From contig NZ_CP079800.1 in assembly GCF_028869115.1 (NCBI RefSeq), positions 2,046,001 to 2,110,000 on the forward strand: DNA of 64,000 nucleotides, given 5' to 3'. The position numbers and the translations under genes are program-made. This document shows, one piece after another, positions 1-63,137 of this stretch. The DNA is from Pseudemcibacter aquimaris (GTDB taxonomy: Bacteria; Pseudomonadota; Alphaproteobacteria; Sphingomonadales; Emcibacteraceae). The notes under the pieces were generated by a model, which worked only from the letters and a program-made list of their open reading frames with translations, ran no database searches and was not told the DNA's origin. Every line of letters begins with the position of its first letter. The first letter of the stretch is position 1.

Positions 1-768
1 ATTAAAGTAAGGCTTGATGGTGCCCTTGGGTCACGGGGTGCGGCATTGCTTGAACCATATTCCGATTATGATACCAAAGGGTTAATCATCACAAAAAGTG
101 AAGACATCAGACCCGTTCTGTTAAAAGCCATCAAAATGGGTTTCCAGGTTGAAACACATGCCATTGGTGATGCCGCCAACAGGATAATTCTGGATTTATA
201 CGAGGAAGCCTTTAAAGCGGTTCCAAAATCACAACGTGCCGTTCAAGATCCAAGATGGCGTGTGGAACATGCACAAAACATCCAACCAGAAGACGTTGAT
301 CGCTTTATTGACCTTGACGTCATTCCGTCAATGCAGGCGTCGCATGCCATTGGTGACCTTCATTTTGCCGGCATTAGATTGGGCATTCCGCGACTTGCCA
401 ATGCCTATCTATGGCGTACGTTAATTGACAAGGGTTCGATTATTGCCGGCGGATCTGATCAGCCAGTTGAAATTGGCGACCCACGTATTGAATTTTACGC
501 CGCCGTTGCCAGAAAAGATTTCGATGGCTATACCGGTGAAGGATGGCACCCTGAATATGCGGTAACTCGTGAAGAGGCCCTAAAAATGTTAACCATCTGG
601 GGTGCGCATACCGCGTTTCAGGAAAATATTCTAGGCAGTATTGAAGTTGGAAAGCTGGCTGACCTAAGTATTATGGATAAAGACATAATGACCATCCCAG
701 AAGACCAGATTATGACAGCTGAAAATGTCATGACGGTCGTTAACGGAAAAATTGTTTATCAAAAATAA
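1..768 (+). CDS. YtcJ-type amidohydrolase, C-terminal part (cut by window edge)
   Basis: The frame is open from base 1 (I-K-V-R-L-D-G-A-L-G-S-R-G) and ends at 768, so the gene starts outside the window. It is the C-terminal half of an Amidohydrolase_3 (YtcJ-like) metal hydrolase. THAIGD and EHAQN carry the later metal-binding histidines, and GGSDQPVE carries the catalytic Asp. It closely resembles the complete gene 11 bp downstream over its whole visible length, which points to tandem duplication. One local difference is FAGIRLGIPRL where the two paralogues at 780 and 9645 read FAEDRLG. The N-terminus and export signal cannot be seen. Family members hydrolyse amide or cyclic amide bonds; the substrate here is unknown. 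Confidence 0.9.
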   Translation: MKVRLDGALGSRGAALLEPYSDYDTKGLIITKSEDIRPVLLKAIKMGFQVETHAIGDAANRIILDLYEEAFKAVPKSQRAVQDPRWRVEHAQNIQPEDVDRFIDLDVIPSMQASHAIGDLHFAGIRLGIPRLANAYLWRTLIDKGSIIAGGSDQPVEIGDPRIEFYAAVARKDFDGYTGEGWHPEYAVTREEALKMLTIWGAHTAFQENILGSIEVGKLADLSIMDKDIMTIPEDQIMTAENVMTVVNGKIVYQK

Positions 769-779
769 GAGTAGAAAAT

Positions 780-2456
780 ATGATTAAAAAAATATTAGGA
801 ACCGCAGCATTAACTGCATTAATGACAACAACATCATTTGCACAAAGCTGTGTTGATGCTGATATCGTTCTTAAGAATGGTAAAATATATACCGTTAACG
901 ACAACCAACCAACCGCAGAAGCAACAGCCATTTTGGGTAATAAAATTATTTATGTTGGCGATAATATCGGTGTTGAACGTTATGCATGTGGTGATGCAAA
1001 TATCATCGACCTCGCTGGTAAGGCCGTTTATCCAGGACTTATTGAATCCCACGGACATTTGGAAGGTGTCGGTTTCCGTGAAGTAAACCTGAACCTGCAA
1101 GGTATTGATAGTCTTGCTGAAATGCTTGCTGCCGTTAAAGCATATGCTGATGAAAACCCGGATGCAGAATGGGTATCCGGCCGCGGATGGATCGAAAAAG
1201 TTTGGCCGGAAGGTCGCTTCCCAACACGTCAGGATCTTGATGAAATTGTTCCTGACCGTCCCGTATATCTTGGCCGTGCAGATGGCCATAGTGCCGTTAT
1301 CAATACCAAAGCCATGGAAATGGCCGGTATCACAGGCACAACTGAAAATCCGGTTGGTGGCCATATTAACCTTGATGACAATGGTGAACCGACAGGTATG
1401 TTGATTGATAACGCAATGAACATCGTTAGCAGCCTAATCCCTTCACCAAATAGAGAGCAAACAAAAGCAGCCATAAAACGTGGCGCAGAACGAAATGCAT
1501 CCCTTGGCTGGACAGGTTTCCATAATGCTGGAAGTACTTACGAAAGCCTTGAACTTGCCAAAGAGCTTCGTGCAGAAGGTGCCCTTGCACATAGACTATA
1601 TCAAGTAATGTGGATGGACGAAAATGCCGAAAGACTGGCTGAAGAAGGGCCAGACATTGACCCTGAACATTATGTAACCACACGTGGTATCAAAATGATG
1701 ATGGATGGTGCACTTGGTTCCCGTGGTGCGCTTTTCATTGATAAATATGCCGATTATGACACCAAAGGTCTTCCGATGTTTACACAGGAAGAAATGATGC
1801 CATTGATCATCAAGGCACTTGAAAACGGCATTCAAATTCAAACACATGCCATCGGCGATGGGGCGAACCGCATCATGCTTGATATTTACGAAGATGCGTT
1901 CAAAGCCGTGCCAAAATCAAAACGTAAAGTGGCAGATGCAAGATGGCGTATTGAACATGCGCAGAACATTCAACCAAATGATCAGGACCGTTTCATTGAC
2001 CTTGATGTCATCCCATCAATGCAACCATCCCACGCGATTGGTGATCTTCATTTCGCAGAGGACCGCTTGGGACGTGAACGACTTGCCAATGCTTATCCAT
2101 GGCGTATAATGATTGATAAGGGCGCAATTATCCCCGGCGGTTCGGATCAGCCTGTTGAAATTGGTGATCCACGCATTGAATTTTATGCAGCTGTAGCCCG
2201 TAAAGACTTAAGCGGTTTTTCTGCTGACGGATGGCATCCGGAATATGCGGTAACCCGTGAAGAAGCACTAAAAATGTTTACAATTTGGGGTGCAATGGCC
2301 GCATTCCAAGAAGATGTGCTTGGTTCTATCGAAGTTGGTAAACTTGCTGATTTCAGTATTTTTGACAAAGATCTTATGACCATTCCAGAAGATCAGATTA
2401 TGAGTGCTGAAAATGTGATGACAATTGTAAATGGAAAAATTGTTTATCAGAAATAA
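780..2456 (+). CDS. Exported YtcJ-type amidohydrolase
   Basis: Complete 558-residue Amidohydrolase_3 family enzyme. Residues 1-21 form a signal peptide (Lys-rich start, hydrophobic core, cut after SFA/Q), so it probably acts in the periplasm. Metal and catalytic residues are visible: H91-G-H93, H356 in THAIGD, H393 in EHAQN and D456 in GGSDQPVE. It is the second of two tandem copies, 11 bp after the truncated one, with an RBS-like AGAGTAG before the ATG, so the pair is probably one transcript. A TonB receptor gene begins 88 bp further on, suggesting uptake and hydrolysis of one class of compound. The natural substrate of such exported members is not established. Confidence 0.93.
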   Translation: MIKKILGTAALTALMTTTSFAQSCVDADIVLKNGKIYTVNDNQPTAEATAILGNKIIYVGDNIGVERYACGDANIIDLAGKAVYPGLIESHGHLEGVGFREVNLNLQGIDSLAEMLAAVKAYADENPDAEWVSGRGWIEKVWPEGRFPTRQDLDEIVPDRPVYLGRADGHSAVINTKAMEMAGITGTTENPVGGHINLDDNGEPTGMLIDNAMNIVSSLIPSPNREQTKAAIKRGAERNASLGWTGFHNAGSTYESLELAKELRAEGALAHRLYQVMWMDENAERLAEEGPDIDPEHYVTTRGIKMMMDGALGSRGALFIDKYADYDTKGLPMFTQEEMMPLIIKALENGIQIQTHAIGDGANRIMLDIYEDAFKAVPKSKRKVADARWRIEHAQNIQPNDQDRFIDLDVIPSMQPSHAIGDLHFAEDRLGRERLANAYPWRIMIDKGAIIPGGSDQPVEIGDPRIEFYAAVARKDLSGFSADGWHPEYAVTREEALKMFTIWGAMAAFQEDVLGSIEVGKLADFSIFDKDLMTIPEDQIMSAENVMTIVNGKIVYQK

Positions 2457-2492
2457 CTTTAAGTTAACTATTTTAGATTTAAAGTTATTTTT
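2453..2492 (+). terminator. AT-rich stem-loop after the amidohydrolase
   Basis: ATAACTTTAA overlaps the stop codon and pairs with TTAAAGTTAT at 2479-2488, followed by a short T run. The stem contains only two G-C pairs, so it would be a weak or leaky terminator before the TonB receptor gene. Confidence 0.35.
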
Positions 2493-2544
2493 AATTAGCG
2501 CCTCTTGGGGATTGAAAGGATAACGAGAGATTAGCTTATATAAA

Positions 2545-4641
2545 ATGAAAAGGCTTACACCACTTTCAATATATGCTTCTGTTCTATTAGGTTCATGGGC
2601 ATCGGCAAATGATACATTGCCAGATACCGACCTTACCAATTATTCAATCGAAGAATTGCTAAACATTAGAACGACTGTATCGACACTGACACCACAAACA
2701 GCAATGGAAGCCCCCTCTTCCGTCACTGTATATACCCGTCAAGAAATCATGAGCATGGGTGTCGATACGGTTGAAGACCTTCTTAATTTTATTCCGGGCG
2801 CCTATACCAACCGCAGTGATGCACTTGGTAAAAGTGCCATTTTCCGTGGAAGATCAACGGGCCCCTGTGGAAATGGGGTTTTATTCCTGCTTGATAATGT
2901 TGCAGTAAATGACAGTGTTTGTGGCGGGGCCGCCGAAGGCCTTCCTTTCATGAGCGTTTCAAACATTGAACAAATAGAGGTTATCCGTGGCCCCGGTTCA
3001 GCGATTTATGGATCAGGTGCACTTTACGGTGTTGTAAACATCATTTCCCGTAAAGACAGCAATAACATAAGCGCATCTTATGGTTCCTTCTATGCCAGAG
3101 AGGTCAGCTTTCAAAACAGCGCTGAATGGGAAACGATTAAATCATCCATATCGGGCAAGTATTTTGAAGATGACGGCGAATATTATGAACCATTCTTCAA
3201 TCATTTTGGCGAACTAAACCCAACCAAAGACCCTGTGAAAGGCTTTGATGGTGCGTTAAATCTCGACATTTCCGGACTACAGTTAAACGGTTATTTTTTC
3301 TATAGACGCATGGGTGAATTTGTCGCTGGCGGTGCTCAGGGTGACTTAAGCGGCAAACAAAGAACCGACACCCATAATGTGATTATATCCGCACGTTATC
3401 CGTATCAAGTTAATCCTAAACTTACAATTGAACCATATGCCGATTTCAAATATTTCCAATCTGATTTTAGGTCACTATTATTCCCTGCATCCGCTGCTGC
3501 GGACTTAGTATGGACTAACGGGGCCGAGGTTGACGCCGAAGGTGGCAATTACCGCGAAGGTAAAGATTACCGTATTGGTTTTTCTGCCAATTGGGAACAT
3601 GCAGAAAATCATACCATTACAATGGGCGCTAATTTTAAAGAAAACAGCATTGATCGAAATTCATTTCAGGGTAACTGGGATCAGGATGCTTTTTTTGCAA
3701 GCGATGGCGTGGATTTTATCCCCGGCGACGAGCATGTCATTGGTTTCTTTGGCGGGTATGGATTACCGCTTAACCCTGATGAATATTATCTTATTGATGC
3801 CACCTCTCAACAAATCATTGGTACTTACCTGCAAAGTCAATGGCGACCAACCGACAATTTATCTATAACAAGTGGCATAAGATACGATGATCATAAAGAA
3901 ATTGGCAGCAAAATAAGTCTTCGTGGCGGTGTTGTTTATAAATTAACGGATGACACAACAGTCAAAGGATTGTTTGGACAAGCATTCAGGGCGCCAACCA
4001 TTGCAGAAACAGATTCAGAAATTGCCACCAATGCGGTTGGTAACCCTAACCTTAATCCTGAACATATCACAACATTTGAAGCATCCATTTCACAGCGTTT
4101 TGGTAAAAGCATTTTTACCATTACATGGTTTAGAAATGAATTGTCGGACGTCATCAAACCCGTTCTCGTAGAAGACATCATCGAAGGTTTTAACGCATTT
4201 CAGGCACAGAACTTAAATAAAATCACAAATACCGGTTGGGAAGCAGAAGCATTATTTAATCCCGTTGAAAATGTAACATTAAAAGTTGGTGGTTCTATTA
4301 TGAACAATGCCGATGAAGTTGGCGTTGCTGAAAAACAGGCCTTTTGGGTTTTAAATTATAATCTGAACCAATGGAATTTTAATATAAACGGATTTTATCG
4401 TAGCGGTTTTATTTCCAAGCTAGCCGATGGCAACTTATACCCTGAAAACATCAATATTGATGCCTTTACCCATTTTAATGCCAAGTTATCGTATCAAGTG
4501 AATGATAATGTACAGCTTTATGTTAAAGCCAATAATTTATTTGATAAATATTATAAAAACTTTTCATACGTCGAAGGATTGGAAAATGGTACACCGCTTC
4601 GTGGTCTTTCCGCAAAATTTGGAATGTTTATGACATATTAA
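2545..4641 (+). CDS. TonB-dependent outer membrane receptor
   Basis: 698 residues. A signal peptide (about 1-21, ending SWASA/N) is followed by a plug domain. Typical plug motifs are APSSVTVYTRQEI near residue 55, a VEDLLNFIPG segment, and IEQIEVIRGPGSAIYGSGAL, the most conserved TBDT stretch. A beta-barrel follows, with the TonB-family C-terminal strand pattern (KANNLFDKYY, then LRGLSAKFGMFMTY). Two cysteines in the plug (GPCGNG and DSVCGG) could form a disulfide. It imports large or scarce substrates across the outer membrane using TonB energy. Lying 88 bp after an exported amidohydrolase, it may feed or share that enzyme's substrate; this is inference. Confidence 0.93.
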   Translation: MKRLTPLSIYASVLLGSWASANDTLPDTDLTNYSIEELLNIRTTVSTLTPQTAMEAPSSVTVYTRQEIMSMGVDTVEDLLNFIPGAYTNRSDALGKSAIFRGRSTGPCGNGVLFLLDNVAVNDSVCGGAAEGLPFMSVSNIEQIEVIRGPGSAIYGSGALYGVVNIISRKDSNNISASYGSFYAREVSFQNSAEWETIKSSISGKYFEDDGEYYEPFFNHFGELNPTKDPVKGFDGALNLDISGLQLNGYFFYRRMGEFVAGGAQGDLSGKQRTDTHNVIISARYPYQVNPKLTIEPYADFKYFQSDFRSLLFPASAAADLVWTNGAEVDAEGGNYREGKDYRIGFSANWEHAENHTITMGANFKENSIDRNSFQGNWDQDAFFASDGVDFIPGDEHVIGFFGGYGLPLNPDEYYLIDATSQQIIGTYLQSQWRPTDNLSITSGIRYDDHKEIGSKISLRGGVVYKLTDDTTVKGLFGQAFRAPTIAETDSEIATNAVGNPNLNPEHITTFEASISQRFGKSIFTITWFRNELSDVIKPVLVEDIIEGFNAFQAQNLNKITNTGWEAEALFNPVENVTLKVGGSIMNNADEVGVAEKQAFWVLNYNLNQWNFNINGFYRSGFISKLADGNLYPENINIDAFTHFNAKLSYQVNDNVQLYVKANNLFDKYYKNFSYVEGLENGTPLRGLSAKFGMFMTY

Positions 4642-4851
4642 AACAAACCAGTATGCATGTATAAACACCCGCCCTCAGGCACAATATCAGAAAAACCTTA
4701 TATAAATAAAGCACTTAACGTGATCACATAAGTTTCATATTGTTTCAAAAAACAACAATTTATGTACATTTTGTTTTTTACATCATGATAAATACTCATT
4801 ATACTGCCTTTGAATTTTATAAATTGGGGGACATTTAATAGGGAGTTATTA

Positions 4852-5571
4852 ATGTCAGATGTCATCCTGATAGTTGATGATGAAGACGAATTTAGAGATG
4901 TCGTTTCAGCACTTTTGGAACTGAATGGTTTTGAAGTGCTCGAAACGCAAAATGTGAACGAGATGTACAGCCATCTTGAAAACCGCAATATATCTCTTAT
5001 TCTTCTTGATATATCACTTCCGGATCAGGATGGTCTATCGGCCTTAAAAGAATTAAGAGAAGGCAATGATATCCCTATCGTTCTTCTAACGGGTAAAGGT
5101 GACATTAACTATAAAGTTGTCGGCCTTGAGCTTGGTGCTGATGATTATATCACTAAACCATTCCATTCCCATGAATTGGTCGCACGCCTTAAAAACATTT
5201 TAAGAAGATCGTCCAGCAATAATGATAATGGCTCCGGGGCTGCCCAGAACGACGATATGATTGTATTTAACGGCTGGAAGCTTGATACCCATTCAAGAAC
5301 TTTATTTGCTCCAGATGGTGAAAACATCGCTATCACAGGACACGAATATGCAATTTTAAGCGCACTGATTTCAGCAGCAGGCCGCACATTAAGCCGTGAA
5401 CAGTTATTAGATCATATCGGTGCCAATTCAAGGGATTATACTCCCTTCGATAGAAGCCTTGATGTTATGGTCGCCAAATTACGCCGTAAATTAAAAGATG
5501 ATGCAAAAAACCCACAGTATATTCGCACCATCAGGCAAGTAGGTTATATGTTCATCGGAAAAATTGAATAA
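4852..5571 (+). CDS. OmpR-family response regulator
   Basis: 239 residues from the ATG at 4852, which is preceded by GGGAG; the in-frame TTG at 4810 lacks an RBS and would add a non-family extension. The receiver domain (1-115) has the acidic pocket D9/D10, phospho-acceptor D53 and K102. The C-terminal winged helix (about 135-238) has the HEYAIL start and the conserved RRKLKDD...IRTIRQVGYMF end. It is a DNA-binding output protein of a two-component system. It converges on the BvgS-like hybrid kinase gene, with 5 bp between the stop codons, so they are probable partners. The decamer repeats at 9233-9272 upstream of that kinase gene are a candidate target. Confidence 0.93.
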   Translation: MSDVILIVDDEDEFRDVVSALLELNGFEVLETQNVNEMYSHLENRNISLILLDISLPDQDGLSALKELREGNDIPIVLLTGKGDINYKVVGLELGADDYITKPFHSHELVARLKNILRRSSSNNDNGSGAAQNDDMIVFNGWKLDTHSRTLFAPDGENIAITGHEYAILSALISAAGRTLSREQLLDHIGANSRDYTPFDRSLDVMVAKLRRKLKDDAKNPQYIRTIRQVGYMFIGKIE

Positions 5572-5576
5572 CGAAT

Positions 5577-8060
5577 TTATCTATCCAATGTGCGCCTTAC
5601 CGCAAAGGCAAGCTCATGATGGCTATATGGTTTTGCAAGCACACTTCTTTTCAATTCTTCTTTAATTCTGCTTCCTGACACATCAACCTCGACATTATCT
5701 GAATATCCACTGGTCAATAGAATTTTTATGGATGGATTTAATTCCCGCGCAATTTGGGAAACCTTATATCCATCATCATCATCTGGCATAACGATATCAC
5801 TGAATAATAATTCAATATCGCTGTTTTTTTTCAAGATATCTATCGCTGTCTTGCTATCATTGGCCGCAAACACCGAATAACCAAGGTTTTTAAGCTGGTT
5901 CTCAGCCACCTCGCATAGGTTTTCTTCATCATCAAGAACAAGTATTTTTTCCTTACCCGTTGGCAATAATACTTGTTCTTCTCTTACCTCTTCATCCGCT
6001 TCGAATGCTCTATAAGAACGCGGGATATATAAATTGATCGTTGTACCAACACCAATTTCAGAATGAATTCGTAGATGCCCACCTGTACGCTGCGCAAACC
6101 CGTGAACCATGCTTAAACCAAGACCGGTGCCTTTATTCACTGACTTGGTTGTGAAAAATGGTTCTAAAACTTTATCTTTAATCGCTGGGGCTATCCCCTC
6201 ACCGGTATCAGTAAAAGATATAAGAATATGATCGCCGATTTTACTATCTGATACTCTTTCTACATATTGTTCATTGAGCACAACATTTTCTGTTTTTATG
6301 GTGAACGAACCGCCGTTCGGCATCGCGTCTCGTGCATTAAGGCAGATATTTAATACTGCATCCTCAAATTCACTTTCGTCAATTTCCGCCGGCCACAAGT
6401 TTTCTAATAATGATGTTTCAAACTGAATAGTATGACCAAGTGATTTGCTCATAGAATCCTGAAAAATTCGAATACAGTCATTGACGTTGGTAACCGCTCT
6501 TTGCGGTGATGAATTCCTCGAAAAACTAAGAAGCTTTTTGATCAGATTACTGCCCCGATCCACACTTTTAATCGCTTTTTGCAATCTGCTTTTTTGTTTT
6601 GCTTCTGCTTCAATCGTACTATCCAGAATTTCGAGATTTCCAAGAATAATACCAAGGATATTATTAAAGTCATGGGCAATACCACCCGTAAGTTGGCCCA
6701 CAGCATCCATTTTTTGCGAATGACGCAGCTGGTCTTCCCTTTCTTTAAGCTCGGAAAGATCCTGGAACTGCGCCACGAAATGTTTTGGTTTACCTTCCCC
6801 ATCACGAACCAAAGACGCATTAAATTGAACTGGCACAATACTATTATCAGCACGTACGTAACGTTCTTCCAGTTCAAATGATGGACGGATGCCCTTTAGA
6901 ACCTCTTTCATCATTGACATGCTGTTTTTAAGATCATCCTTATGCGTTACTTGCATAAGTGTCTTTTCAAGCATCTCATCTTCGCTGAAATCCAAAATAT
7001 TACAAAGCGCATCATTAACCCTTAAAAAATTGCCATCAATGGAAATAAGGGCCATGCCATTGGTCGCATAATCAAAGGCATTTTGGAACTGGTTACTCAT
7101 TTCATCAAGTTTGGATGATGATATTTTACTTTGAGTAATATCGCTTGAAAAACCAATGATGTTTTTTATCTTTCCCTCTTCATAAACTGGATGAATTTGA
7201 CTTGATAACCATCTGACGGTTCCATCCTTATGAACAATTCTATAATCGGGAATTTTGGCTTTATAGTCGCTTTTTATAACGCGCTCTATTGCATTCTTAT
7301 AAAAATCCCTGTCTTCACGGTGTAAAATCTGATCCCAGATAAATGGATCCTGATAAATTTCTTCGCAGGTAAATTTTGTCCATTCCTCAAAATTAGGGCT
7401 AATATATTCAATATCTCTCATATTTGGCTTCAGGATATAAAATAAACCATCAACAGTTTCTGCAATTTGCTTAAAACGTTCTTCACTGGACTTTCTAAGT
7501 GAGATTTCTTTACGAAGACTGTAATTCCATAACAAGAATAAAAGAATAATAATAAGCGAAGCCCCAATAATCCTTAATATAAGCGAATAATCTGGGTCCG
7601 GCGCTTTTTCAAGCATGATCCATTGACGGTTGATTTCCGCTTTTTCCTGTACCGTTACGCTATCGATGGCTTTTCTCACCGCGCTACTTAAATGTGGTAG
7701 ATCAGAACGAATACCAATTGCGATCTTTGTCGAATATGGCGTACTACCAACTGTCACCAAGTTCGTCAGATTTTCCATGGCGATATTATAGGACGTGATC
7801 GGCACGCTTCCGACATAGGCATCAGCCTCACCCGATGACACGAGCTTTAAAGCCTCTGGAATTGTTGCAACTTCAATCACATTGATATCGGGGTAAAATT
7901 CTTTAATTCTTCTGGTGACCCTGAAACCTGCAACTTGTGCAACCGTTCTGCCACTAAGGCCAGACAAATCCACAAATACATCTTCATTTTCGCGGGCAAA
8001 AATCACACTGTCGAGCGTCATATATACTTCGGTGAAATCAATGTATTTTTCCCTATCCAT
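5577..8060 (-). CDS. BvgS-like hybrid sensor kinase, 3' fragment (frameshifted)
   Basis: This is the larger part of a sensor kinase interrupted by a one-base frameshift. The frame is open back to about 8106; 8060 is only its first ATG. In order: second half of a Venus-flytrap domain (SBP_bac_3), one membrane helix near residues 167-190, two PAS domains (about 200-320 and 330-445), HisKA with H463 in GGIAHDFNN, and HATPase_c with [16 protein letters not shown] and [13 protein letters not shown]-terminal receiver domain follows, with DDEE and FSDIVMPD. It is the only one of the three kinases of this class here with a visible 3' end that has PAS and receiver domains. As read it cannot be made as one protein with its N-terminal sensor. 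Restoring one base joins it to the 8099-9163 fragment, about 1195 residues in total. Confidence 0.88.
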
Positions 8061-8098
8061 TGACGGGGTAATCGCGGTTATGACATCGGCTTGTTTAT

Positions 8099-9163
8099 TT
8101 AGCTCATGGCCAGTCCTTGGCGGAAATTATTATTTTCCACCCATTCAAACTGAAGCCCGAGTTTTTCCTTTAAAATATTAATATAAGACCCTGAAATTCC
8201 CGAAATTTCGCCATTTTCGTCAATGAATTCAACAGGTAAAATCGTTGGATCAACCGCCACCCTAACAACCGGGTTCTTTGCCAACCAATCTTCTTCTGAC
8301 GGGGTAAGCAATAAATCACTATCCGCACGGTCCGGCAAAAACCACTTATCTTTTAATGATTTAAATTCTTCTTCCGATATACTGAGCATTCCTTTTTGAA
8401 TAATAGAACCAAGCATCGGTTGATCATTACGTGTCGCTATACGAACATAATCCATATTTGGAATATTCATAAAGCCAAGGTTGCCAAGCACTTTAACATT
8501 GGGAATAAATTCACTGTCGATTACATATTTACCAATTAACAACGGCAAAAAGAACAAATCACCCGTACCATTTGCAATAGCAAGCATCGCGGACGTTGAA
8601 TTATCAACATCAATAAATTCTAAATCAGGGTATTTTTCTTTATACTGTCTTGTTGCTGCCCACCCTTTAAGAACCAGTATTCTTTTACCTCTTAACTGTT
8701 CAACAGAGTTAATATCTTCGTGCGATGTGCTACCAAACACAGCTGGTAACAATTCAAGATATGGCGGCGAAAAATCAAGGAAACTTTCACGTACCGGTGT
8801 TTGAACAATATTATGAGAAACATCAATTTCACGGTTTTCAAGCCTTGTGATAAGGTTTGCCCATATTTCATCTGTGACGAACTCTAGCTCTAAACCGACT
8901 TTTTCGGCAACAAGTCGAAAGTAATCAATTGAAAAACCCGCGGGTTCACCCGCTCTCATAAATTCAATTGGGGCGGCATTGAATTTTGCAGTAACAGTTA
9001 TCTTCGGATTGTTTGCAATCCATTCCACTTCTTCCGTGGTTAAGATCGGCGTATCAAGAAGATCATTTTCACTACCATCTGGCTGAACATAAGTTTGCGC
9101 ATCGGCAGATACCGATAACAAACATAATCCAAAAATAATATGTAGTAAGGTCTTGATCATCAT
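8099..9163 (-). CDS. BvgS-like sensor kinase, 5' fragment (periplasmic sensor)
   Basis: 354 residues as read. A signal peptide (1-22, ending SADA/Q) is followed by a complete SBP_bac_3 Venus-flytrap domain beginning LTTEEVEWIANNP. A second begins LTPSEEDWLAKNP and stops abruptly after FRQGLAMS. The LTxEExxWLxxNP opening is typical of BvgS/EvgS-type periplasmic sensors. In the kinases at 11493 and 25022 the same point continues for 12 residues (Q-G to A-D) and into the rest of the domain. Here the next base triplets give TAA, and the correct continuation (ELNKQADVITAITPS) lies in another frame. One extra G near 8104-8106 would restore it. Either a real lesion or a sequencing error. Confidence 0.88.
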   Translation of the reverse strand: MMIKTLLHIIFGLCLLSVSADAQTYVQPDGSENDLLDTPILTTEEVEWIANNPKITVTAKFNAAPIEFMRAGEPAGFSIDYFRLVAEKVGLELEFVTDEIWANLITRLENREIDVSHNIVQTPVRESFLDFSPPYLELLPAVFGSTSHEDINSVEQLRGKRILVLKGWAATRQYKEKYPDLEFIDVDNSTSAMLAIANGTGDLFFLPLLIGKYVIDSEFIPNVKVLGNLGFMNIPNMDYVRIATRNDQPMLGSIIQKGMLSISEEEFKSLKDKWFLPDRADSDLLLTPSEEDWLAKNPVVRVAVDPTILPVEFIDENGEISGISGSYINILKEKLGLQFEWVENNNFRQGLAMS

Positions 9164-9232
9164 CCGAATAATTCATTATTATTAATCAATGATTTATAAT
9201 TTGAATCGCATAAATAATCAAATAAACAGTCC

Positions 9233-9272
9233 TTTGGTTACATTTGGTTACAATTCATTACAATAAATTACA
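9233..9272 (-). promoter_or_regulatory. Four tandem 10-bp repeats, likely response-regulator sites
   Basis: Read on the + strand: TTTGGTTACA, TTTGGTTACA, ATTCATTACA, ATAAATTACA, head to tail with no gap. The TTACA core recurs at exactly 10 bp, one helical turn, as in TorR or OmpR binding arrays. The array sits about 70-110 bp before the start of the kinase gene at 9163, a suitable distance for activation, and an OmpR-family regulator is encoded at 4852. Which regulator binds is inference. Confidence 0.6.
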
Positions 9273-9305
9273 CAAAAGTACTTATTTAGTCATTTTCCAG
9301 AAACA

Positions 9306-9380
9306 TTGGCAGGGTAGTTTTCTTTTACTGCGTCAGATCATGTAGGTTAGATTTATAACTTATAAAAAATCTTGGCAGGG
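9306..9380 (+). repeat. Direct repeat TTGGCAGGG, two copies
   Basis: TTGGCAGGG at 9306-9314 and again at 9372-9380, start to start 66 bp, each followed by a T-rich stretch. This could be a paired binding site in the leader of the 9645 gene. No sigma-54 type GC element follows at the required spacing. Confidence 0.4.
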
Positions 9381-9465
9381 GTATTTTTTAAATTACAGTT
9401 TGGAAAATATATTTTTTATATTTGGGCACATAAACTTAGATGCAGTAAAAAAACGAACTACATGT

Positions 9466-9517
9466 ACGAGAGTTAGGAAATAAATCACCCATATTTTCTA
9501 ACTCCCGTATTTTTTTT
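9466..9517 (+). terminator. Strong stem-loop with T tract (attenuator or sRNA end)
   Basis: The arm 9466-9481 (ACGAGAGTTAGGAAAT) pairs with 9493-9508 with one mismatch and one G-U pair, an 11-nt loop, and then a T run at 9510-9517. It is a canonical intrinsic terminator reading left to right. No + strand gene ends nearby, so it ends either a short untranslated RNA or a leader transcript of the amidohydrolase gene that starts 128 bp later. Confidence 0.65.
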
Positions 9518-9644
9518 GTTCATTTTCCCTTTAAATCCCCCCTTTTCGGTAAAAACTCGTTGTAATCTGCAGCATATACGTTCTATCTTGCATGTGACAA
9601 AATTTAAAAATCAAAAATCGCGCAAAATTTAACGAGGAAATAAT

Positions 9645-11360
9645 ATGATAAAAAACATATTGCTTGCCACTGCGGCCATGGGGCTGCTTGCTGCTTGTTC
9701 CGCAGAACAAGGAAGCGGAGGATCAAAAGAAACATCTGCATCAAATGCCGTTTGTACACCGGCAGATATCGTTTTAACAAACGGTACCGTTTATACGGTT
9801 AATGACAACAACCCATCTGCAGAAGCCATTGCCATTAAAGACAGTAAATTCATTTATGTCGGCGATAATGGTGGTGCAGAACGTTATGCCTGCGGCGATG
9901 CAAATGTTATTGATTTGGCGGGTAAGGCCGTTTATCCGGGTTTTATTGAATCCCACGGACATATTTCCGGCGTTGGTTTCCGCGAAGTAAACCTGAACCT
10001 TCAAGGTATCAATAGTCTTGCTGAAATGCTTGCCGCGGTTAAGGAATATGCTGATGCAAACCCGGATCAACCATGGATCGTCGGCCGTGGCTGGATTGAA
10101 AAAGTGTGGCCGGAAAAACGTTTCCCAACCCGTCAGGATCTTGATGAAATCGTACCTGATCGTCCAGTTTACCTAACCCGTGCTGACGGCCATGCATCCG
10201 TTATTAATACGGTCGCTATGAATATGGCTGAAATCACAGGGCAAAGTGAAAACCCGGTTGGTGGACATATTAATCTTGATGAAAATGGTGAACCGACAGG
10301 CATGCTGATTGATACGGCAATGCGTTACGTGCGTCCGCTTATCCCTGCACCGACATCTGCGGATGTAAAACGTGCAATCCAGGCTGGTACTGAACGTAAT
10401 GTTAAACTTGGCTGGACTGGCTTCCAAAACGCGGGCAGTTCATGGGAATCCTTTAACCTGATGAAAGAACTTCGTGATGAAGGGAAGCTCGCTCACCGTA
10501 TTTATGACGCAATGGGTTACGGCGATAGCGCGAGCAAGCTGGTTGCGGATGGTGCAATCATTGATCCGGAACATTATCTAACCGTTCGTGATATTAAAAT
10601 CGTAATGGATGGTGCCCTTGGATCACGCGGTGCAGCATTCATCGAACCATATGCTGATTATGATACGCGTGGTTTGATGCGTTATACACCGGAAGAAATT
10701 CTGCCATTACTAGAAGGCGCACTAAAAGCCGGCATTCAAATTGAAACTCATGCCATTGGTGATGATGCAAACCGTAAGGTTCTTGATGCATATGAAATGG
10801 CATTTAACAATGTCCCGAAATCACAGCGTAAAGTGAATGACGTTCGCTGGCGTATTGAACATGCACAAAATGTTCAGCCGGACGATGTTGACCGTTTCAT
10901 CGATCTTGATGTTCTGCCATCAATGCAACCGTCACATGCGATTGGCGATCTTCACTTTGCCGAAGACCGCCTTGGACTTGAACGCCTTAAGAACGCTTAC
11001 CTATGGCGCGTATTCATTGATAAAGGTGCCATTATTCCTGGCGGCTCAGACCAGCCGGTTGAAATTGGTGATCCTCGTATTGAATTTTACGCGGCCATTG
11101 CCCGTAAAGATCTTAATGGCTTCTCAGCCCAAGGATGGCACCCTGAATATGCGGTAACACGTGAAGAAGCCTTAAAAATGCTAACCATTTGGGGCGCATA
11201 TGCTGCATTCCAAGAAGATGCTCTTGGCTCCATTGAAATGGGTAAGCTTGCTGATCTTGTGGTATTTGATAAGGATTTAATGGTCATTCCAGAGGATCAA
11301 ATCATGTCATCCAATGCTGTTTTAACTATTGTTCATGGTGACATCAAACACCAGCAATAA
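9645..11360 (+). CDS. YtcJ-type amidohydrolase lipoprotein
   Basis: 571 residues. The N-terminus has a lipoprotein signal with lipobox LLAAC (lipidated C18) followed by a Ser/Gly-rich linker, so the enzyme is membrane-anchored, unlike its soluble paralogue at 780. The rest is the same Amidohydrolase_3 fold: H104-G-H106, THAIGDDANR, EHAQN and GGSDQPVE are all present. RBS GAGGAA precedes the ATG. A long leader (9164-9644) with repeats and a stem-loop suggests regulated expression, and a clear terminator follows at 11388. A BvgS-like kinase gene starts 132 bp downstream. Likely role: hydrolysis of amide-containing nutrients in the periplasm; substrate unknown. Confidence 0.93.
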   Translation: MIKNILLATAAMGLLAACSAEQGSGGSKETSASNAVCTPADIVLTNGTVYTVNDNNPSAEAIAIKDSKFIYVGDNGGAERYACGDANVIDLAGKAVYPGFIESHGHISGVGFREVNLNLQGINSLAEMLAAVKEYADANPDQPWIVGRGWIEKVWPEKRFPTRQDLDEIVPDRPVYLTRADGHASVINTVAMNMAEITGQSENPVGGHINLDENGEPTGMLIDTAMRYVRPLIPAPTSADVKRAIQAGTERNVKLGWTGFQNAGSSWESFNLMKELRDEGKLAHRIYDAMGYGDSASKLVADGAIIDPEHYLTVRDIKIVMDGALGSRGAAFIEPYADYDTRGLMRYTPEEILPLLEGALKAGIQIETHAIGDDANRKVLDAYEMAFNNVPKSQRKVNDVRWRIEHAQNVQPDDVDRFIDLDVLPSMQPSHAIGDLHFAEDRLGLERLKNAYLWRVFIDKGAIIPGGSDQPVEIGDPRIEFYAAIARKDLNGFSAQGWHPEYAVTREEALKMLTIWGAYAAFQEDALGSIEMGKLADLVVFDKDLMVIPEDQIMSSNAVLTIVHGDIKHQQ

Positions 11361-11387
11361 GTAAAATCAATAACTTAGAATAAATTA

Positions 11388-11417
11388 GGCTACTTTTCTT
11401 TTAAAGTAGCCTTTTTT
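11388..11417 (+). terminator. Intrinsic terminator after the lipoprotein amidohydrolase
   Basis: GGCTACTTT pairs with AAAGTAGCC (11403-11411) and is followed by six T residues. Confidence 0.85.
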
Positions 11418-11492
11418 ATACATGTTAACTATTTAGTCACTAAAATGCTCTACAATTAAAAGTTAAGAATAATAAATCTAGAGCAGCATGTT

Positions 11493-13892
11493 TTGAGTAA
11501 ATTTATAGTATGGATTATTTTATTGGGGGTTTCGTTGCATGGTTACCTTAACCCTGTAAAGGCTCAAGACGTCTCATTCACACAAGAAGAACTAAATTGG
11601 ATTAATGAAAACCCTGTACTGCGCGCTGGTAGTGCCATCGATGTTCCACCTTTACATTATTTCCGTCAAGGTGTGCCAACAGGTTATTCCATTGATTATA
11701 TGAAACTGGTTGCAAATAAGGCCGGGTTTGAGCTTGAATTTGTTAATGCCGCCAGCCATGGCGATTTTGTTCTTATGTTAGAACAGCGGGAAATAGATGT
11801 CATGCATAGCTTGACACCGTCCGAAGAACGAAGGGCGCATATGAATTTTACCCCAACGTATATGAATGTGCCTCTCGTATATTTCGGACGTACCGGAAGC
11901 GACCAGATCAGATCAATTGAAGATTTAAATGGTCAAAGGGTGGGCGCAGTAACCGGATGGTTAACAACAGAAATCTATAAAACAGAACATCCCGAATTTA
12001 ATTTAAGTGAATATTCAGGAATAATAGAAGGTTTAAACGCAATTTCAGCAAATGAAATTGACATCTTTGTTGCCCAGCTTCCCGTGGGTAACTACACATT
12101 GAACCAACACTTCATTTCCGGTGTAGAAGTTATCGGCAGACAGTTTTTCCCAGAGGAACATTCAGGGGACCTACTTGCATTAGGGGTCAGAAATGACATT
12201 CCAATTTTAACCGATATTCTAATCAAGGCGGCCTACGCCGTCACTGAACAAGAATTATCAGTCATATCGCAACGTTGGCTAAATGAATATAACGAGATTG
12301 AAAATATCGGCCTTACTCAAGAAGAGCTTGAGTTCTTATCAGAAAACCAGACCTTTCTTGTTGCCGCAGACCCACAAGCAGCACCAATTGAATATATTGA
12401 TCAGGACGGTAACATTTCCGGCATATCCGGCGACTATTTAAATTTAATTGCTAATAAATTAAACGTTGAATTTAAATGGCTGGGTAATGAAACCATACAA
12501 GATGGTGCTGAAAGCCTTAAACGCGGCGAAGCAGATTTATTCTCTGCAGCCAGCCCAAACAGGGAAAGACTTGAATATCTTGATTTTTCAAGTTCATATC
12601 TGACAATTTCGACGTTTATTTTCGCCAGGTCCGATGAAAGCTCGTTCGCCAATTTATCAGCAATGAGCGGGTTTAATTTTGCACAAGTCGCAGGTTTTGC
12701 AATCACCACATACATTAAAGAAAATTACCCGGATATAAATATCACTGAATATACATCTGTTGAAGATGCACTTATAGCCGTTAATAACGGTGAAGCAGAC
12801 GCATATGCCGGAAGCATCCCATCCGCCGCGAGCGTTATTTCATCAAAAGGACTGTTGCATGTGAACATTATTGGTGAAAGTGAGTTTAAAGCGTTCATTA
12901 GCATAGGCACCAGAAAAGAATTACCCTTGTTATCCAGTGCAATTGAAAAAGCGATGAATTCAATCACTGAAATTGAACATAACGAAATTTCCAAAAAATG
13001 GATGGCAACGCAAATCGCGCCTGTCAGCGATTATAGCCTTCTGTTCCGTTTTATAATTGGCGCGATTGCAGTAATTACATTCGTGTTGATTTGGAACGGC
13101 AAATTAAGAAATGAGATTGGGCGACGCAAAGAAGCCGAACTGGAAATGCAAACAGCTAGACGAGAGGCCGAAGAAGCAAGTCGTGCCAAGTCAGCCTTCC
13201 TTGCCAATATGTCCCATGAAATCAGAACACCGCTTAATGCCATCATCGGCTTTTCAGAGGTCATGTCATCAGGAACATTCGGCAAGATACAAAATGAGAA
13301 ATACAGTGAATATCTAAAAGATATCCATAACAGCGGTCAGCATCTGGCAACTGTTATTAATGACATACTTGATCTTTCGAAAATCGAAGCCGGAAAATGG
13401 AAACTGAATGAAGAAGAATTTCACATAAACAAATGCCTTGATGATGCACTGGATATGTTTAAAGAGCTGGCCAACACCAAAGGCGTTGAAATGTCATGTC
13501 ATTGTCAAAAAGATATCGAAAAAATCGTCGTCAAGGGTGACGCCCACTGCATTATGCGCGCCATCATTAACCTGATCTCTAATTCAGTTAAGTTTACCCC
13601 TGAAAATGGTAAAGTTTACTGTCAAACCAACATCAATGGCACAGGTGAGCTGATGATTGAAATTATTGATACCGGTGTTGGCATTCCAGAAGACCGTATT
13701 GACCATGTTGTCCACCCGTTTGATCAGGCACATGATAATCAGTATTTGAAAGAAGAAGGCACTGGCCTTGGGCTTTCTATCGTGCAAAACCTTGTCAAAT
13801 TACATGACGGTAACTTCAGCATAAAAAGCGAAGTCGGGAAAGGCACCCGTGCAACGATCACCCTTCCCGCTAATAGAGTTATTGCGGCATAG
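11493..13892 (+). CDS. BvgS-like sensor histidine kinase, two Venus-flytrap domains
   Basis: 799 residues from a TTG start at 11493; the nearby ATG at 11488 reads straight into a stop. Signal peptide ends at VKA/Q (residue 25). Two SBP_bac_3 domains follow, about 30-265 (opening FTQEELNWINENP) and 275-510 (LTQEELEFLSENQ), then a transmembrane helix (about 520-540) and a short coiled coil. HisKA has H575 in NMSHEIRTP, and HATPase_c has NLISNSVKF, DTGVGI and GTGLGLSIV. It has no PAS or receiver domain. No response regulator gene adjoins it. The sensor domains resemble amino-acid or peptide binding proteins; the ligand is not known. It converges on pepN. Confidence 0.92.
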   Translation: MSKFIVWIILLGVSLHGYLNPVKAQDVSFTQEELNWINENPVLRAGSAIDVPPLHYFRQGVPTGYSIDYMKLVANKAGFELEFVNAASHGDFVLMLEQREIDVMHSLTPSEERRAHMNFTPTYMNVPLVYFGRTGSDQIRSIEDLNGQRVGAVTGWLTTEIYKTEHPEFNLSEYSGIIEGLNAISANEIDIFVAQLPVGNYTLNQHFISGVEVIGRQFFPEEHSGDLLALGVRNDIPILTDILIKAAYAVTEQELSVISQRWLNEYNEIENIGLTQEELEFLSENQTFLVAADPQAAPIEYIDQDGNISGISGDYLNLIANKLNVEFKWLGNETIQDGAESLKRGEADLFSAASPNRERLEYLDFSSSYLTISTFIFARSDESSFANLSAMSGFNFAQVAGFAITTYIKENYPDINITEYTSVEDALIAVNNGEADAYAGSIPSAASVISSKGLLHVNIIGESEFKAFISIGTRKELPLLSSAIEKAMNSITEIEHNEISKKWMATQIAPVSDYSLLFRFIIGAIAVITFVLIWNGKLRNEIGRRKEAELEMQTARREAEEASRAKSAFLANMSHEIRTPLNAIIGFSEVMSSGTFGKIQNEKYSEYLKDIHNSGQHLATVINDILDLSKIEAGKWKLNEEEFHINKCLDDALDMFKELANTKGVEMSCHCQKDIEKIVVKGDAHCIMRAIINLISNSVKFTPENGKVYCQTNINGTGELMIEIIDTGVGIPEDRIDHVVHPFDQAHDNQYLKEEGTGLGLSIVQNLVKLHDGNFSIKSEVGKGTRATITLPANRVIAA

Positions 13893-25021: not shown

Positions 25022-27469
25022 ATGAGTTTGTTACCCAATGGGGGTTGGCGTATTAAACCCCTTTTAGGTTATGCTGTAATTATCATTACAACATTGCTCG
25101 GTTCTGCCTTTGCGCAGACCAGCAACAATTTCGTGCTAAATCTTTCGGCTGAAGAACAACAATGGATTTCTGAAAATCCAACGCTTACCGTTACCAATCA
25201 GATGAACTGGGCACCTATTGATTTTGTTGATGGTGATCGCCCTTCTGGTTTTTCCATTGATTATTTAAACTTAGTTCTAAGCAAGGTTGGCCTTAATGCA
25301 AGCTATATAAATGGCTTAGCATGGAATGACCTTCATTCTATGGCAATAAATAATGAAGTGGATATTATCCATAGCGTTATTCGCACAGAAGAAAGAGAAA
25401 AGCATTTCTTATTTTCTGATCATTATCTTGAATTACCCGTTGGTTTTTATGGTCTACCTGGAAGCGCTCCTGTAGAAAGCGTAGAGGATTTATCTGGAAA
25501 GGCTGTTGGATCAATTCGAAACTCTGGTACTGCAAACGTCCTTAAAAAAGAAAGCCCAGGAAGTACTATACTGGAATTTACTGATATCAATGAAGCACTT
25601 GTCGCATTAAGTGGCGGCATTATTGATATTTATGCCGGACGTGTTCCAATTGTAAATCACGCTATCTCAACCAATCGCTATACGAACCTTGATTTTCTAG
25701 GCGGCGCAATTTTTACCTACAGTAACCGTGATGCACGGCTTCGTATTGCAGTACATAATAGCAACCCTTTATTAATGGCTATCATTGAAAAAGGAATGAG
25801 CGCTGTTACAGATAACGAGTATCAATTTCTCGTGGATAAATGGCAGACAAGTTCCTTAAGAGCGGGTAATTTCCGCTTAACTGAAGAAGAAAGAAATTGG
25901 TTAGACAATAACCCTATTATTAGGGTTGCTTCTTTTCCGAACATTGAACCATTGGAATTTGTTACACCCGATGGGCGTATTAGTGGGATTACAGGAACAT
26001 ACCTTGATATACTTTCAGAATTATTGGGCATCAGATTTGAATGGGTAAGAAATGAGACCTGGGAACAAGGATTTGAAATGATCAAATCCGGAACCGCCGA
26101 CATCATTTCGGCAACAACATCAACGCCAGAACGCGATGAATATCTTTCATATTCTGACCCATATTTATCACTTAACAATATGATATTCTCTATTCGCGGT
26201 AATAATTATTCTTCGATGCAAGACTTAAGAGGTAAAAAAATTGCCCAAGTAAGTAACTTTGCAATCACTGATTTTTTGAGAAATGACTATCCAGATATTG
26301 AAATCATTGAAACTGAAACCGCCACAGATGCATTAAACCTCGTTAATGATCAACAGGCCGACGCCTTTATCGCAAGCACTTTACTGGTGACCCCTATCAT
26401 TGCCCAACATAGTATGGATGATATTATTGCCACCGGAAGTAGCCCGTATGAAATTATTGAAACCATTGGCATAAGAAAAGACCTTACGATATTGTCTAGC
26501 GTAATAAAAAAAGCGATGGCAAGCATCACGGCAGTAGAAAAAGCAACCATAAACAATGAATGGATGATCCCACGCACACAAGCAAAACAGGATTATACAT
26601 TAGTTCTAAGCATTACAGGTGTATTAATCACCTTTACATTGATTGTATTATTCTGGAACGCGAGCCTTAGGAAAGAAGTTTCAAGGCGTATTAAAACCGA
26701 AAATGAACTTCATAAATCCAGATCCATCGCTGAAGGCGAACGCGTAAAAGCCCAAGTCGCTAAACGTGAAGCCGAAGATGCCAACAGGGCAAAGTCAACA
26801 TTCCTTGCAAATATGTCTCATGAACTGCGTACCCCCTTAAATGCGATTATCGGTTTTTCCGACGTCATGTCCGCAGAAATTTACGGAAAACTGGATAACC
26901 CGAAATATAAAGAATATCTGAAAGATATTAATAATAGCGGCCTTCATCTTGTGACAATCATCAACGACATTCTTGATCTTTCAAAAATCGAAGCCGGTAA
27001 AATGCAGCTTGTTAAATCACCCTTTGATTTAAATGAATGTATTACCGAGGCCGTCAAGATGGTTCAGAACTCAGCTGAACGTCAAAAAATATCGCTTACC
27101 CAGTATGGATCGTCTTATGAAATTTATGCAGATAAAAACGCTTTAAAAAGAATTTTTATCAATCTTCTTTCCAATGCTGTTAAATTTACACCGGAAAATG
27201 GCAGTATATCCATTACCCTTTCCATCGAAGATGATATTATCATTTATGTGAAAGATAGTGGCATCGGTATCCCTAAGGATAAACTTGAACAAGTCATCAA
27301 GCCATTTGAACAAATCGAACAAGATTCAAATATTAACGAAGAAGGCACCGGCCTTGGCCTATCTATTGTAAACAAGCTAACCGAACTTCATGGTGGCAGT
27401 TTTAAACTTGATAGTGATCTGGGAATGGGTACAACTGCCATCGTACGACTGCCGCATACCAAACTTTAA
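25022..27469 (+). CDS. BvgS-like sensor histidine kinase, two Venus-flytrap domains
   Basis: 815 residues with RBS GGGGAAG. Signal peptide through SAFA/Q (about residue 32). Two SBP_bac_3 sensor domains follow, about 40-275 (LSAEEQQWISENP) and 285-520 (LTEEERNWLDNNP), then a membrane helix near 530-550 (TLVLSITGVLITFTLIVLFW) and a coiled coil. HisKA has H600 in NMSHELRTP, and HATPase_c has NLLSNAVKF, DSGIGI and GTGLGLSIV. It has the same architecture as the kinase at 11493 and no receiver domain. No response regulator gene is adjacent. Ligand unknown; a terminator-like hairpin follows at 27490. Confidence 0.92.
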   Translation: MSLLPNGGWRIKPLLGYAVIIITTLLGSAFAQTSNNFVLNLSAEEQQWISENPTLTVTNQMNWAPIDFVDGDRPSGFSIDYLNLVLSKVGLNASYINGLAWNDLHSMAINNEVDIIHSVIRTEEREKHFLFSDHYLELPVGFYGLPGSAPVESVEDLSGKAVGSIRNSGTANVLKKESPGSTILEFTDINEALVALSGGIIDIYAGRVPIVNHAISTNRYTNLDFLGGAIFTYSNRDARLRIAVHNSNPLLMAIIEKGMSAVTDNEYQFLVDKWQTSSLRAGNFRLTEEERNWLDNNPIIRVASFPNIEPLEFVTPDGRISGITGTYLDILSELLGIRFEWVRNETWEQGFEMIKSGTADIISATTSTPERDEYLSYSDPYLSLNNMIFSIRGNNYSSMQDLRGKKIAQVSNFAITDFLRNDYPDIEIIETETATDALNLVNDQQADAFIASTLLVTPIIAQHSMDDIIATGSSPYEIIETIGIRKDLTILSSVIKKAMASITAVEKATINNEWMIPRTQAKQDYTLVLSITGVLITFTLIVLFWNASLRKEVSRRIKTENELHKSRSIAEGERVKAQVAKREAEDANRAKSTFLANMSHELRTPLNAIIGFSDVMSAEIYGKLDNPKYKEYLKDINNSGLHLVTIINDILDLSKIEAGKMQLVKSPFDLNECITEAVKMVQNSAERQKISLTQYGSSYEIYADKNALKRIFINLLSNAVKFTPENGSISITLSIEDDIIIYVKDSGIGIPKDKLEQVIKPFEQIEQDSNINEEGTGLGLSIVNKLTELHGGSFKLDSDLGMGTTAIVRLPHTKL

Positions 27470-62336: not shown

Positions 62337-63137
62337 TTAAGGCAAACGTTTAAGAAACTCTTCTACCTCAAGCATATATTCTTCTTTAAATTCTTCTAGT
62401 AGATGCCCACCATTTGGATAAGAAATATGGCTACATTGTTCACCGATTTTCTCGCAAATTTCCCATGCCATTGCCGTTGATGGCCATGCTTTATCCTTGC
62501 CGCCGGAAAGAAGTAACGTTGGAATATCAATATCTTGAACCGGAATAAGCGCTTTTTTTACTTTATCCTTTTGTGTAAGCGAGGCCGCATGACGATTATC
62601 AAGCCCAAGTTCATTTTGCTTTTCCCGTGAAATATATGGAACAAAGGGAATTGCTTTTCCGTCAAAGCTCCAGCTGGAAGGGCTCTGCATTATTTTTGAA
62701 AAATCTTTTGGAAAACCTTGCCAAACAACCTTACTCGGTGCCATCGCAATGATACCTTTATATTCATCGGGATAGTGACTAGCCAGTACAAGTGATGCTT
62801 CCGCCCCTTTTGAAAGACCATAAAGAATCACACCTGAACTTCTTTCATCAAGCCATTTCCTTGCCGTTTCAAAATATTCAATCGGGATCATTTCCAATGT
62901 TTCTGGAAGACCTTCCTCACCATAATATGAAATAGCAAGAACATTATATCCCATCGCATTAAGGCGCGTTGCCGTTTCATGATCTTTGCCCATACCGGAA
63001 CCGGCAACAATTAAGATACCAATTTTATCTTTATTCCCTGCACTATAAAAATCGCCATTAAATGGAACGTTCTTCACCGTTTCCTGTGCATTTGCGACAT
63101 TAAAAATTACCCCAATAGCAATCAAAATTCTAAGCAT
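62337..63137 (-). CDS. Exported alpha/beta hydrolase (BAAT/dienelactone hydrolase-like)
   Basis: 266 residues from the ATG at 63137, chosen because GGAAGA lies 6-7 bases upstream and the product then starts with a signal peptide (MLRILIAIGVIFNVANA/Q); earlier in-frame starts add a polar leader. Fold: ILIVAGSGMGKDHETATRL, nucleophile in YGLSKGAEASLVL, Asp in LLSGGKDKAWPS and His in PNGGHLLEEF. This resembles the acyl-CoA thioester hydrolase/BAAT C-terminal group, but an exported member cannot act on CoA esters; an ester or amide substrate is more likely. Same strand as the amidohydrolase gene. Confidence 0.87.
   Translation of the reverse strand: MLRILIAIGVIFNVANAQETVKNVPFNGDFYSAGNKDKIGILIVAGSGMGKDHETATRLNAMGYNVLAISYYGEEGLPETLEMIPIEYFETARKWLDERSSGVILYGLSKGAEASLVLASHYPDEYKGIIAMAPSKVVWQGFPKDFSKIMQSPSSWSFDGKAIPFVPYISREKQNELGLDNRHAASLTQKDKVKKALIPVQDIDIPTLLLSGGKDKAWPSTAMAWEICEKIGEQCSHISYPNGGHLLEEFKEEYMLEVEEFLKRLP

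Follow-up and report, generated by a model that had tools for sequence, protein, structure and literature searches.

Introduction

To our knowledge, ligands are known for few members of the BvgS type of sensor kinase. Here we describe kinase B (KB), a BvgS-type histidine kinase encoded beside a predicted exported amidohydrolase of the YtcJ type in a 64,000-nucleotide stretch of the Pseudemcibacter aquimaris genome (hereafter the window: positions 2046001-2110000 of a 3.37-Mb genome in one contig), whose parts we checked with Pfam. Across the BvgS family, one to five Venus-flytrap domains (VFTs, or flytraps) per kinase have been predicted (PMC4352136), and about 30% of twin-flytrap homologs are PAS-less (PMC5829827), both figures coming from excerpts of those papers. 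KB comprises two tandem SBP_bac_3 flytraps and a HisKA and HATPase core, and the best solved relatives of its sensor are EvgS (9ilw, E = 3.3e-30) and BvgS (4q0c, E = 5.3e-29, residues 26-511). With BvgS and EvgS it shares the paired SBP_bac_3 domains, a single membrane span (judged by eye) and a direct linker to HisKA/HATPase, placing it with the PAS-less, linker-X subfamily; Pfam gave no PAS match at E ≤ 0.01 and no receiver or Hpt match. Unlike BvgS proper, KB has no receiver, no Hpt and no adjoining BvgA-like regulator (no regulator gene was detected within 3 kb), and unlike the known BvgS/EvgS family it is part of an expansion confined to one genus, in which the distal clefts differ from clade to clade and several copies have decayed.

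On the enzyme side, the closest described systems are the metallo bile salt hydrolases and epsilon-lysine acylases. Excerpts of two papers describe a secreted bile salt hydrolase of the PF07969 family that also cleaves N-acyl taurines (PMC13081902, a preprint) and an epsilon-lysine acylase assigned to a YtcJ-like family (PMC10699109); characterised PF07969/YtcJ-like enzymes act on N-acyl bonds, namely those of N-acyl taurines and epsilon-acyl lysine. BwBSH1, in the excerpted preprint (PMC13081902), has a predicted signal peptide, as judged by eye for the proteins here, and measures 945 aa, against 548-571 aa for the YtcJ genes complete within the window. The window proteins fall in the same Pfam family, match it over their full length (333-357 bits against a cut-off of 29.7, for the three genes entire in the window) and keep the putative metal ligands. 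Export is predicted by eye alone, from Sec-type signals in amidohydrolases 1, 2 and 4 and a lipobox, LAAC, in amidohydrolase 3. The columns H104, H106, K318, H369, H406 and D469 are invariant in 9/9 aligned paralogs, and we take this HxH, K, H, H, D set to be the metal ligands.

With slightly more confidence than doubt, we read the region as a genus-conserved locus of exported YtcJ enzymes beside the aminopeptidase gene pepN, decorated by fast-turnover, genus-restricted BvgS-type kinases, with KB as a carboxylate sensor. The narrower claim, that KB is linked to amidohydrolase chemistry, we hold more tentatively, at roughly one in three.

KB and a conserved YtcJ gene

The gene pair at the center of this reading, and the gap between its members, are as follows.

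9645-11360, plus strand: YtcJ-type amidohydrolase 3 (PF07969, E = 8.2e-99; lipobox by eye)
11387-11412, plus strand: intrinsic-terminator-like hairpin in the gap between amidohydrolase 3 and KB, a 10-bp stem and then a T run
11493-13892, plus strand: KB, a PAS-less twin-flytrap orphan histidine kinase (two SBP_bac_3, HisKA, HATPase_c)

The address was readable in 12 genomes of the genus, with neighbours named by Pfam or, failing that, by family clustering; G004, represented by a contig-edge fragment only, was left out. YtcJ gene 3, the counterpart of amidohydrolase 3, is present in all 12 (truncated by the contig end in G006 and G012), and its genus orthologs share 77-90% identity. An M1 aminopeptidase gene (pepN) lies 3' of it, directly or past inserts, in 11 of the 12; in G003, where the interval was read from YtcJ gene 3 onwards, the contig ends first. 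On the other side, seven relatives (G003, G005 and G007-G011) have a manC-like gene ahead of the YtcJ genes and the variable genes around them, another gene occupies the manC position in P. aquimaris (G000) and G002, and a contig end is reached in G001, G006 and G012. A kinase stands between YtcJ gene 3 and the aminopeptidase gene (in G003, the contig end) in four of the 12 genomes: P. aquimaris, G003, G008 and G011.

In the three genomes sharing KB, its orthologs are 47-50% identical to KB over the aligned protein and 41-47% in the sensor, and YtcJ gene 3 is 78-80% identical. We built a tree of 51 full-length receiver-less kinases out of 92 sensor open reading frames (ORFs), in which KB falls into a single clade (100/100) with its positional orthologs of G003, G008 and G011. 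Since all members of this clade stand beside YtcJ gene 3, KB is, on this phylogeny, an inherited neighbour of amidohydrolase 3. YtcJ neighbours occur in at least three kinase lineages of the tree, by which the KB clade alone keeps them across genomes, and of the kinases at the locus KB alone looks like a steady partner of the enzyme.

A similar hairpin and T run can be seen by eye in the same gap of two relatives' stretches (L134 and L136). The scanned 2.6 kb held five terminator-like sites against 2.5 expected by chance, so the single hairpin at 11387-11412 counts as weak evidence. Given a terminator-like hairpin in the gap, amidohydrolase 3 and KB probably belong to separate transcription units; an operon of the two was set aside owing to this hairpin and its recurrence in relatives.

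We picture KB as an orphan periplasmic sensor that would be transcribed alone and would signal to a regulator encoded elsewhere, with a distal flytrap that would bind a small carboxylate connected with amidohydrolase 3 chemistry. Elsewhere in the family, kinases may do likewise for other ligands beside other genes.

Ligand clefts of the flytraps

Four cleft sites were fixed beforehand from the amino-acid-binding motif and placed by alignment, with Arg75 and Asp157 of the glutamine-binding protein, which we take to bind the carboxylate and the amine, respectively, as reference. The cleft arginine is kept in 50/51 kinases in the membrane-distal VFT1 and in 47/51 in VFT2. An acid (Asp or Glu) at the amine-binding site is present in 4/51 and 16/51, respectively. 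At the VFT1 acid site the KB clade has Gln (4/4), the clade beside a GMC oxidoreductase cluster Ile (6/6), the kinase C clade Arg (4/4) and the L015 clade Thr (3/3), the remaining clades being mixed.

Sites were ranked by within-clade minus between-clade identity per position, with either seven hand-listed clades (26 rows, two other clades of at least three rows omitted) or nine clades (35 rows). The VFT1 site, position 195, ranks second of 235 with seven clades and fourth of 235 with nine; its VFT2 counterpart ranks second of 233 and third, respectively. Nine VFT1 positions taken as cleft contacts stand above background in both settings (p = 0.001 with seven clades, p = 0.00005 with nine). 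At the cleft, the aligned clades differ most in the membrane-distal flytrap, and we infer that these VFT1 differences reflect different ligands.

The original prediction had the flytraps bind small amino-acid-like ligands; the cleft residues disfavour free amino acids, the arginine being kept and the amine-binding acid absent in the KB clade. For the same reason, the better fit to the aligned KB clefts is a carboxylate whose amine is blocked or missing, an N-acyl amino acid for example, rather than a free amino acid. An amide substrate without a free alpha-amine, N-acyl amino acid-like, would be the likelier putative KB ligand.

A genus-restricted kinase family

Further members of both gene families lie elsewhere in the window.

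25022-27469, plus strand: kinase C, an orphan twin-flytrap kinase (Pfam) 3' of typA (Pfam), with no YtcJ gene adjoining
60643-62289, minus strand: YtcJ-type amidohydrolase 4 (PF07969, E = 4.1e-106)
62337-63179: esterase/BAAT-like gene between amidohydrolase 4 and kinase D
63313-64000, plus strand: 5' part of kinase D, an orphan twin-flytrap kinase running past the window end

Entire, kinase D measures 809 aa (genome 2109313-2111742; L002:1314-3743). The claims that related pieces recur across the window, and that a fourth amidohydrolase sits near another twin-flytrap kinase, were both borne out, by kinase C as a further such kinase and by kinase D, from which amidohydrolase 4 is separated by the esterase/BAAT-like gene. 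The genome as a whole holds 16 flytrap kinase genes in 13 loci, four of the genes broken, kinase A (described below) among them. At 1214 kb a sensor part is followed at once by an ATPase fragment in another frame; at 1294 kb only a sensor piece and an ATPase piece are left; and at 1475-1479 kb (L012:4818-8678, genome 1474817-1478677) a four-flytrap kinase meets a stop ahead of its kinase part.

By sensor search at E ≤ 1e-30, the subfamily occurs in 11/13 genus genomes, our own included, but not in G002 or the half-complete G012, and in 0/27 relatives outside the genus. PF00497 at E ≤ 1e-16 gave 13/13 genus genomes and 0/27 others, a tally that is not a kinase count because stand-alone binding proteins are included. 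The phosphoacceptor, His575, is present in 51/51 kinases, and for 48/51 of these full-length receiver-less proteins the fetched stretch showed no regulator gene up to 3 kb away; HisKA matches over cut-off number 51 in the genome itself, and receiver matches 34. Mean identity within the family is 41-43% in the flytraps and 66-70% in the DHp.

In the tree, the kinases beside the GMC cluster form a separate clade from six genomes (100/99), kinase D stands by itself on a long branch, and kinase C falls in a third clade, whose G005 member has a YtcJ gene adjoining. The GMC-linked clade (L017:1098-7493 and its relatives L151, L158, L173, L181 and L192) is convergent to a GMC oxidoreductase gene, with a gap of 0-23 bases; in all six genomes a nucleoside/H+ symporter-like gene lies near, and in 5/6 a xylose-isomerase-like gene (by clustering). 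The association of kinase and GMC oxidoreductase is tighter than that of kinase and YtcJ. Four head-to-tail flytrap kinases were observed in each of two relatives (L188:4650-15041 and L180:2-12237). In L159:7617-11114 and L195:7639-11136, three flytraps are fused to PAS and GGDEF, a sensor on a diguanylate cyclase; their domain scores are identical, and the two records probably represent one piece of DNA present in both assemblies.

Of the YtcJ family, the genome has 13 full-length genes in eight loci, with internal stops in 0/13. Amidohydrolase 3 is 72% identical to amidohydrolase 2 and 36% to amidohydrolase 4. Four further tandem YtcJ-type genes, three with lipobox-like N termini by eye, lie at genome 1420021-1426931 (L003:5022-11932). 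Six stretches from relatives were examined for this tandem (L143, L144 and L147-L150), with a kinase within 5 kb in G001 only; that kinase is broken, and in G010 one lies 5.1 kb off. One protein of 606 aa encoded in the window (53907-55727, minus strand) has no Pfam match at 1e-5.

Inheritance or chance

A survey of YtcJ genes near twin-flytrap kinases, compared with chance, had been proposed, and its outcome differs between the genus, where there is an excess, and the P. aquimaris genome, where none is clear. In the genome, two of the eight YtcJ loci have one of the 13 kinase loci within 5 kb, as arises in 8.6% of 20,000 random relocations and in 8.0% with a circular shift; for this test a pair of neighbouring kinases counted as a single gene. 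Across 11 genus genomes (35.1 Mb) we examined 57 YtcJ loci and 72 kinase sites. P. aquimaris entered with eight YtcJ loci, one of them below the 1e-60 threshold applied elsewhere. The 72 sites are 73 minus one, kinase D having been counted twice (window end and L002); they include both L159 (G004) and L195 (G010), and the contig-edge pieces G005:C117, G005:C208, G005:C15 and G011:C170 stand outside them. A YtcJ gene lies within 5 kb at nine of the 72 sites, from seven YtcJ loci, where the 544 kb of total flank would be expected to hold 0.88; this expectation assumes even gene density and comes from many short contigs with incomplete flanks. Because four of the seven loci are one inherited address, the independent co-locations number four (p ~0.013).

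The co-occurrence extends beyond the strain in that KB stands beside YtcJ gene 3 in four of 12 genus genomes, but not beyond the genus: no flytrap protein was found near YtcJ at any of 80 named loci (1.32 Mb; genus flytrap profile, E ≤ 1e-3). These are the best 80 of at least 80 in all, many on short contigs, and none among them exceeds 54% identity.

Several observations weigh against our reading. KB is missing in eight of the 12 genomes that keep YtcJ gene 3, among them G001, the closest by that gene (92% over residues 41-571). In the P. aquimaris genome the co-location of YtcJ and kinase genes is not clearly above chance (p ~0.08). At the clefts, one six-row clade varies at the VFT1 site (T, E, D, Q, D, D), and the VFT2 contacts are weakly clade-specific with seven clades (p = 0.04) and non-significant with nine (p = 0.09). 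Cleft residues come from alignment and contact lists, not structure, and the cleft arginine is common among SBP_bac_3 proteins generally. On the output side, the motif RTPLNAIIGFS also occurs in 11 of 18 non-flytrap kinases of the genome (30 HisKA loci fetched, 29 giving an H-box, 18 of these outside the flytrap family), so a common output is not established, and we do not take DHp specificity to prove that one regulator is shared.

The strongest of the other explanations is pure coincidence, in which two unrelated expanded families (13 genes for YtcJ enzymes, 16 for flytrap kinases) have come together by chance in one part of the chromosome and KB hitch-hikes. The own-genome figure fits this, as does the variety of genes that the kinases flank, with a GMC oxidoreductase gene adjoining (within 5 kb) eight of the 72 sites, nearly the tally for YtcJ, and the kinase tree offers no counterpart to the pairing of amidohydrolase 4 with kinase D. 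Coincidence does not sit well with a KB clade that four diverged genomes keep at one address or with the genus-level excess, whether counted as seven loci or as four independent ones, and we consider it an unlikely explanation, if one to be taken seriously.

The convergent aminopeptidase gene

KB and the aminopeptidase gene are convergent, their ends 14 bases apart in P. aquimaris, and the M1 gene occupies this address in all relatives read that far. KB might thus sense a product of this enzyme, its downstream neighbour, rather than amidohydrolase chemistry. The KB clefts, however, carry no amine-binding acid, a residue that is, we presume, usually needed for free amino acids; no export signal was seen by eye on the aminopeptidase; and in G011 two genes separate KB and pepN. 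We regard this explanation as improbable by a wide measure.

Receptor, regulator and hybrid kinase

The remaining parts lie on the 5' side of amidohydrolase 3.

1-768, plus strand: 3' part of YtcJ-type amidohydrolase 1 (PF07969, E = 3.8e-46; 5' end beyond the window)
780-2456, plus strand: YtcJ-type amidohydrolase 2 (PF07969, E = 2.5e-102; Sec-type signal by eye)
2545-4641, plus strand: TonB-dependent receptor (Plug and beta-barrel, Pfam)
4810-5571, plus strand: OmpR-family response regulator (PF00072 and PF00486), convergent with hybrid kinase A
5577-9163, minus strand: kinase A, a twin-flytrap/PAS/PAS/HisKA/HATPase/receiver hybrid, frameshifted (ORFs 8099-9163 and 5577-8060)

Pfam recovered every part that the original prediction had named, but kinase A is not one frame and amidohydrolase 1 is cut by the window edge; entire, the latter measures 555 aa (genome 2045101-2046768; L001). 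The frame of kinase A shifts within its second flytrap domain, between the two ORFs listed, and an intact relative is 1200 aa long (L132:2814-6416). Like hybrid BvgS-like kinases with a separate regulator, kinase A has a twin flytrap, PAS, HisKA, HATPase, receiver and an adjoining regulator gene; unlike them, it has two PAS domains, a convergent OmpR-type regulator and a broken frame. Its nearest full-length NCBIfam models, PRK13557 and CckA, are both below cut-off, and the only model above cut-off, among the best 25 families per protein, was TIGR00229 (PAS domain), for kinase A. In a tree of nine hybrid kinases, with kinase A represented by its C-terminal piece alone, most branching was poorly supported and two branches were very long, only the grouping of kinase A with L132 being supported (99/98).

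The regulator has five genus orthologs (55-65% identity), all convergent to a hybrid twin-flytrap kinase of ~1200 aa with a gap of at most 30 bases, and three of the five (G006, G008 and G010) are on stretches with a cluster of GMC oxidoreductase, isomerase-like and symporter genes. On the fetched stretches, none of the five has a YtcJ gene within 10 kb. Judged by these orthologs, the regulator and kinase A are a real two-component unit, since 5/5 are convergent to a hybrid kinase, and one located here by happenstance, since the relatives' pairs stand away from YtcJ genes; the kinase copy is broken. For the TonB receptor, a search at E ≤ 1e-60 found no relative in any of the other 12 genomes of the genus, some searched genomes having held more candidates than were scored (within the genus, G008 alone, 28/32); a relative in another family is 40% identical.

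The interval between YtcJ genes 2 and 3 is correspondingly variable. It holds the receptor, the regulator and kinase A in P. aquimaris, a GntR-like gene and a small membrane gene in G003, G010, G011 and G005 (the GntR-like label is by eye, a Pfam match at 1e-15 being absent), and nothing in G007. A kinase A-type gene is at the address in only two of the 12 genomes, broken in P. aquimaris and intact in G008; G003 has a different receiver-bearing kinase there, 25% identical to that of G008.

The proposal of a single sense-import-hydrolyse unit, in which the exported amidohydrolases make the ligands, uptake goes through the TonB receptor and control lies with the kinases and the OmpR regulator, draws on the physical presence of every part in the window, on a genus-wide YtcJ/kinase proximity above even density and on the inherited adjacency of KB, but we give it hardly any credence, for the receptor is not common to the other genus genomes (0/12), kinase A is broken and of a type present in 2/12, the regulator/hybrid pair has other addresses in relatives, a hairpin separates gene 3 from KB, and 0/80 named YtcJ loci outside the genus have a flytrap protein nearby; the unshared receptor, the relocated pair, those 80 loci and the variable neighbours led us to reject the module as a conserved unit.

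Implications

In open-licence PMC articles we found no literature linking PF07969 amidohydrolases to sensor kinases and none on orphan flytrap paralog repertoires; among those on lineage-specific histidine kinase expansion, none concerned such a repertoire, by title. A wider possibility, which goes beyond our reading of the locus and which we think rather unlikely, is that the genus evolved a chemoreceptor-like repertoire out of BvgS-type kinases, a genome having at most about a dozen orphan kinases of the twin-flytrap kind, with distal clefts re-tuned per clade to different carboxylates, a nearly fixed DHp and shared regulators, the KB clade reading an N-acyl amino acid-like substrate of the exported YtcJ enzymes that it adjoins. 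This genus holds many copies of a single kinase architecture, and several clades have their own distal-cleft signature and genomic neighbours. The kinase clades thus form a natural series for studying ligand change in flytrap kinases, and their neighbours, YtcJ amidohydrolases in one case and the GMC oxidoreductase/isomerase-like/symporter cluster in another, suggest candidate ligands.

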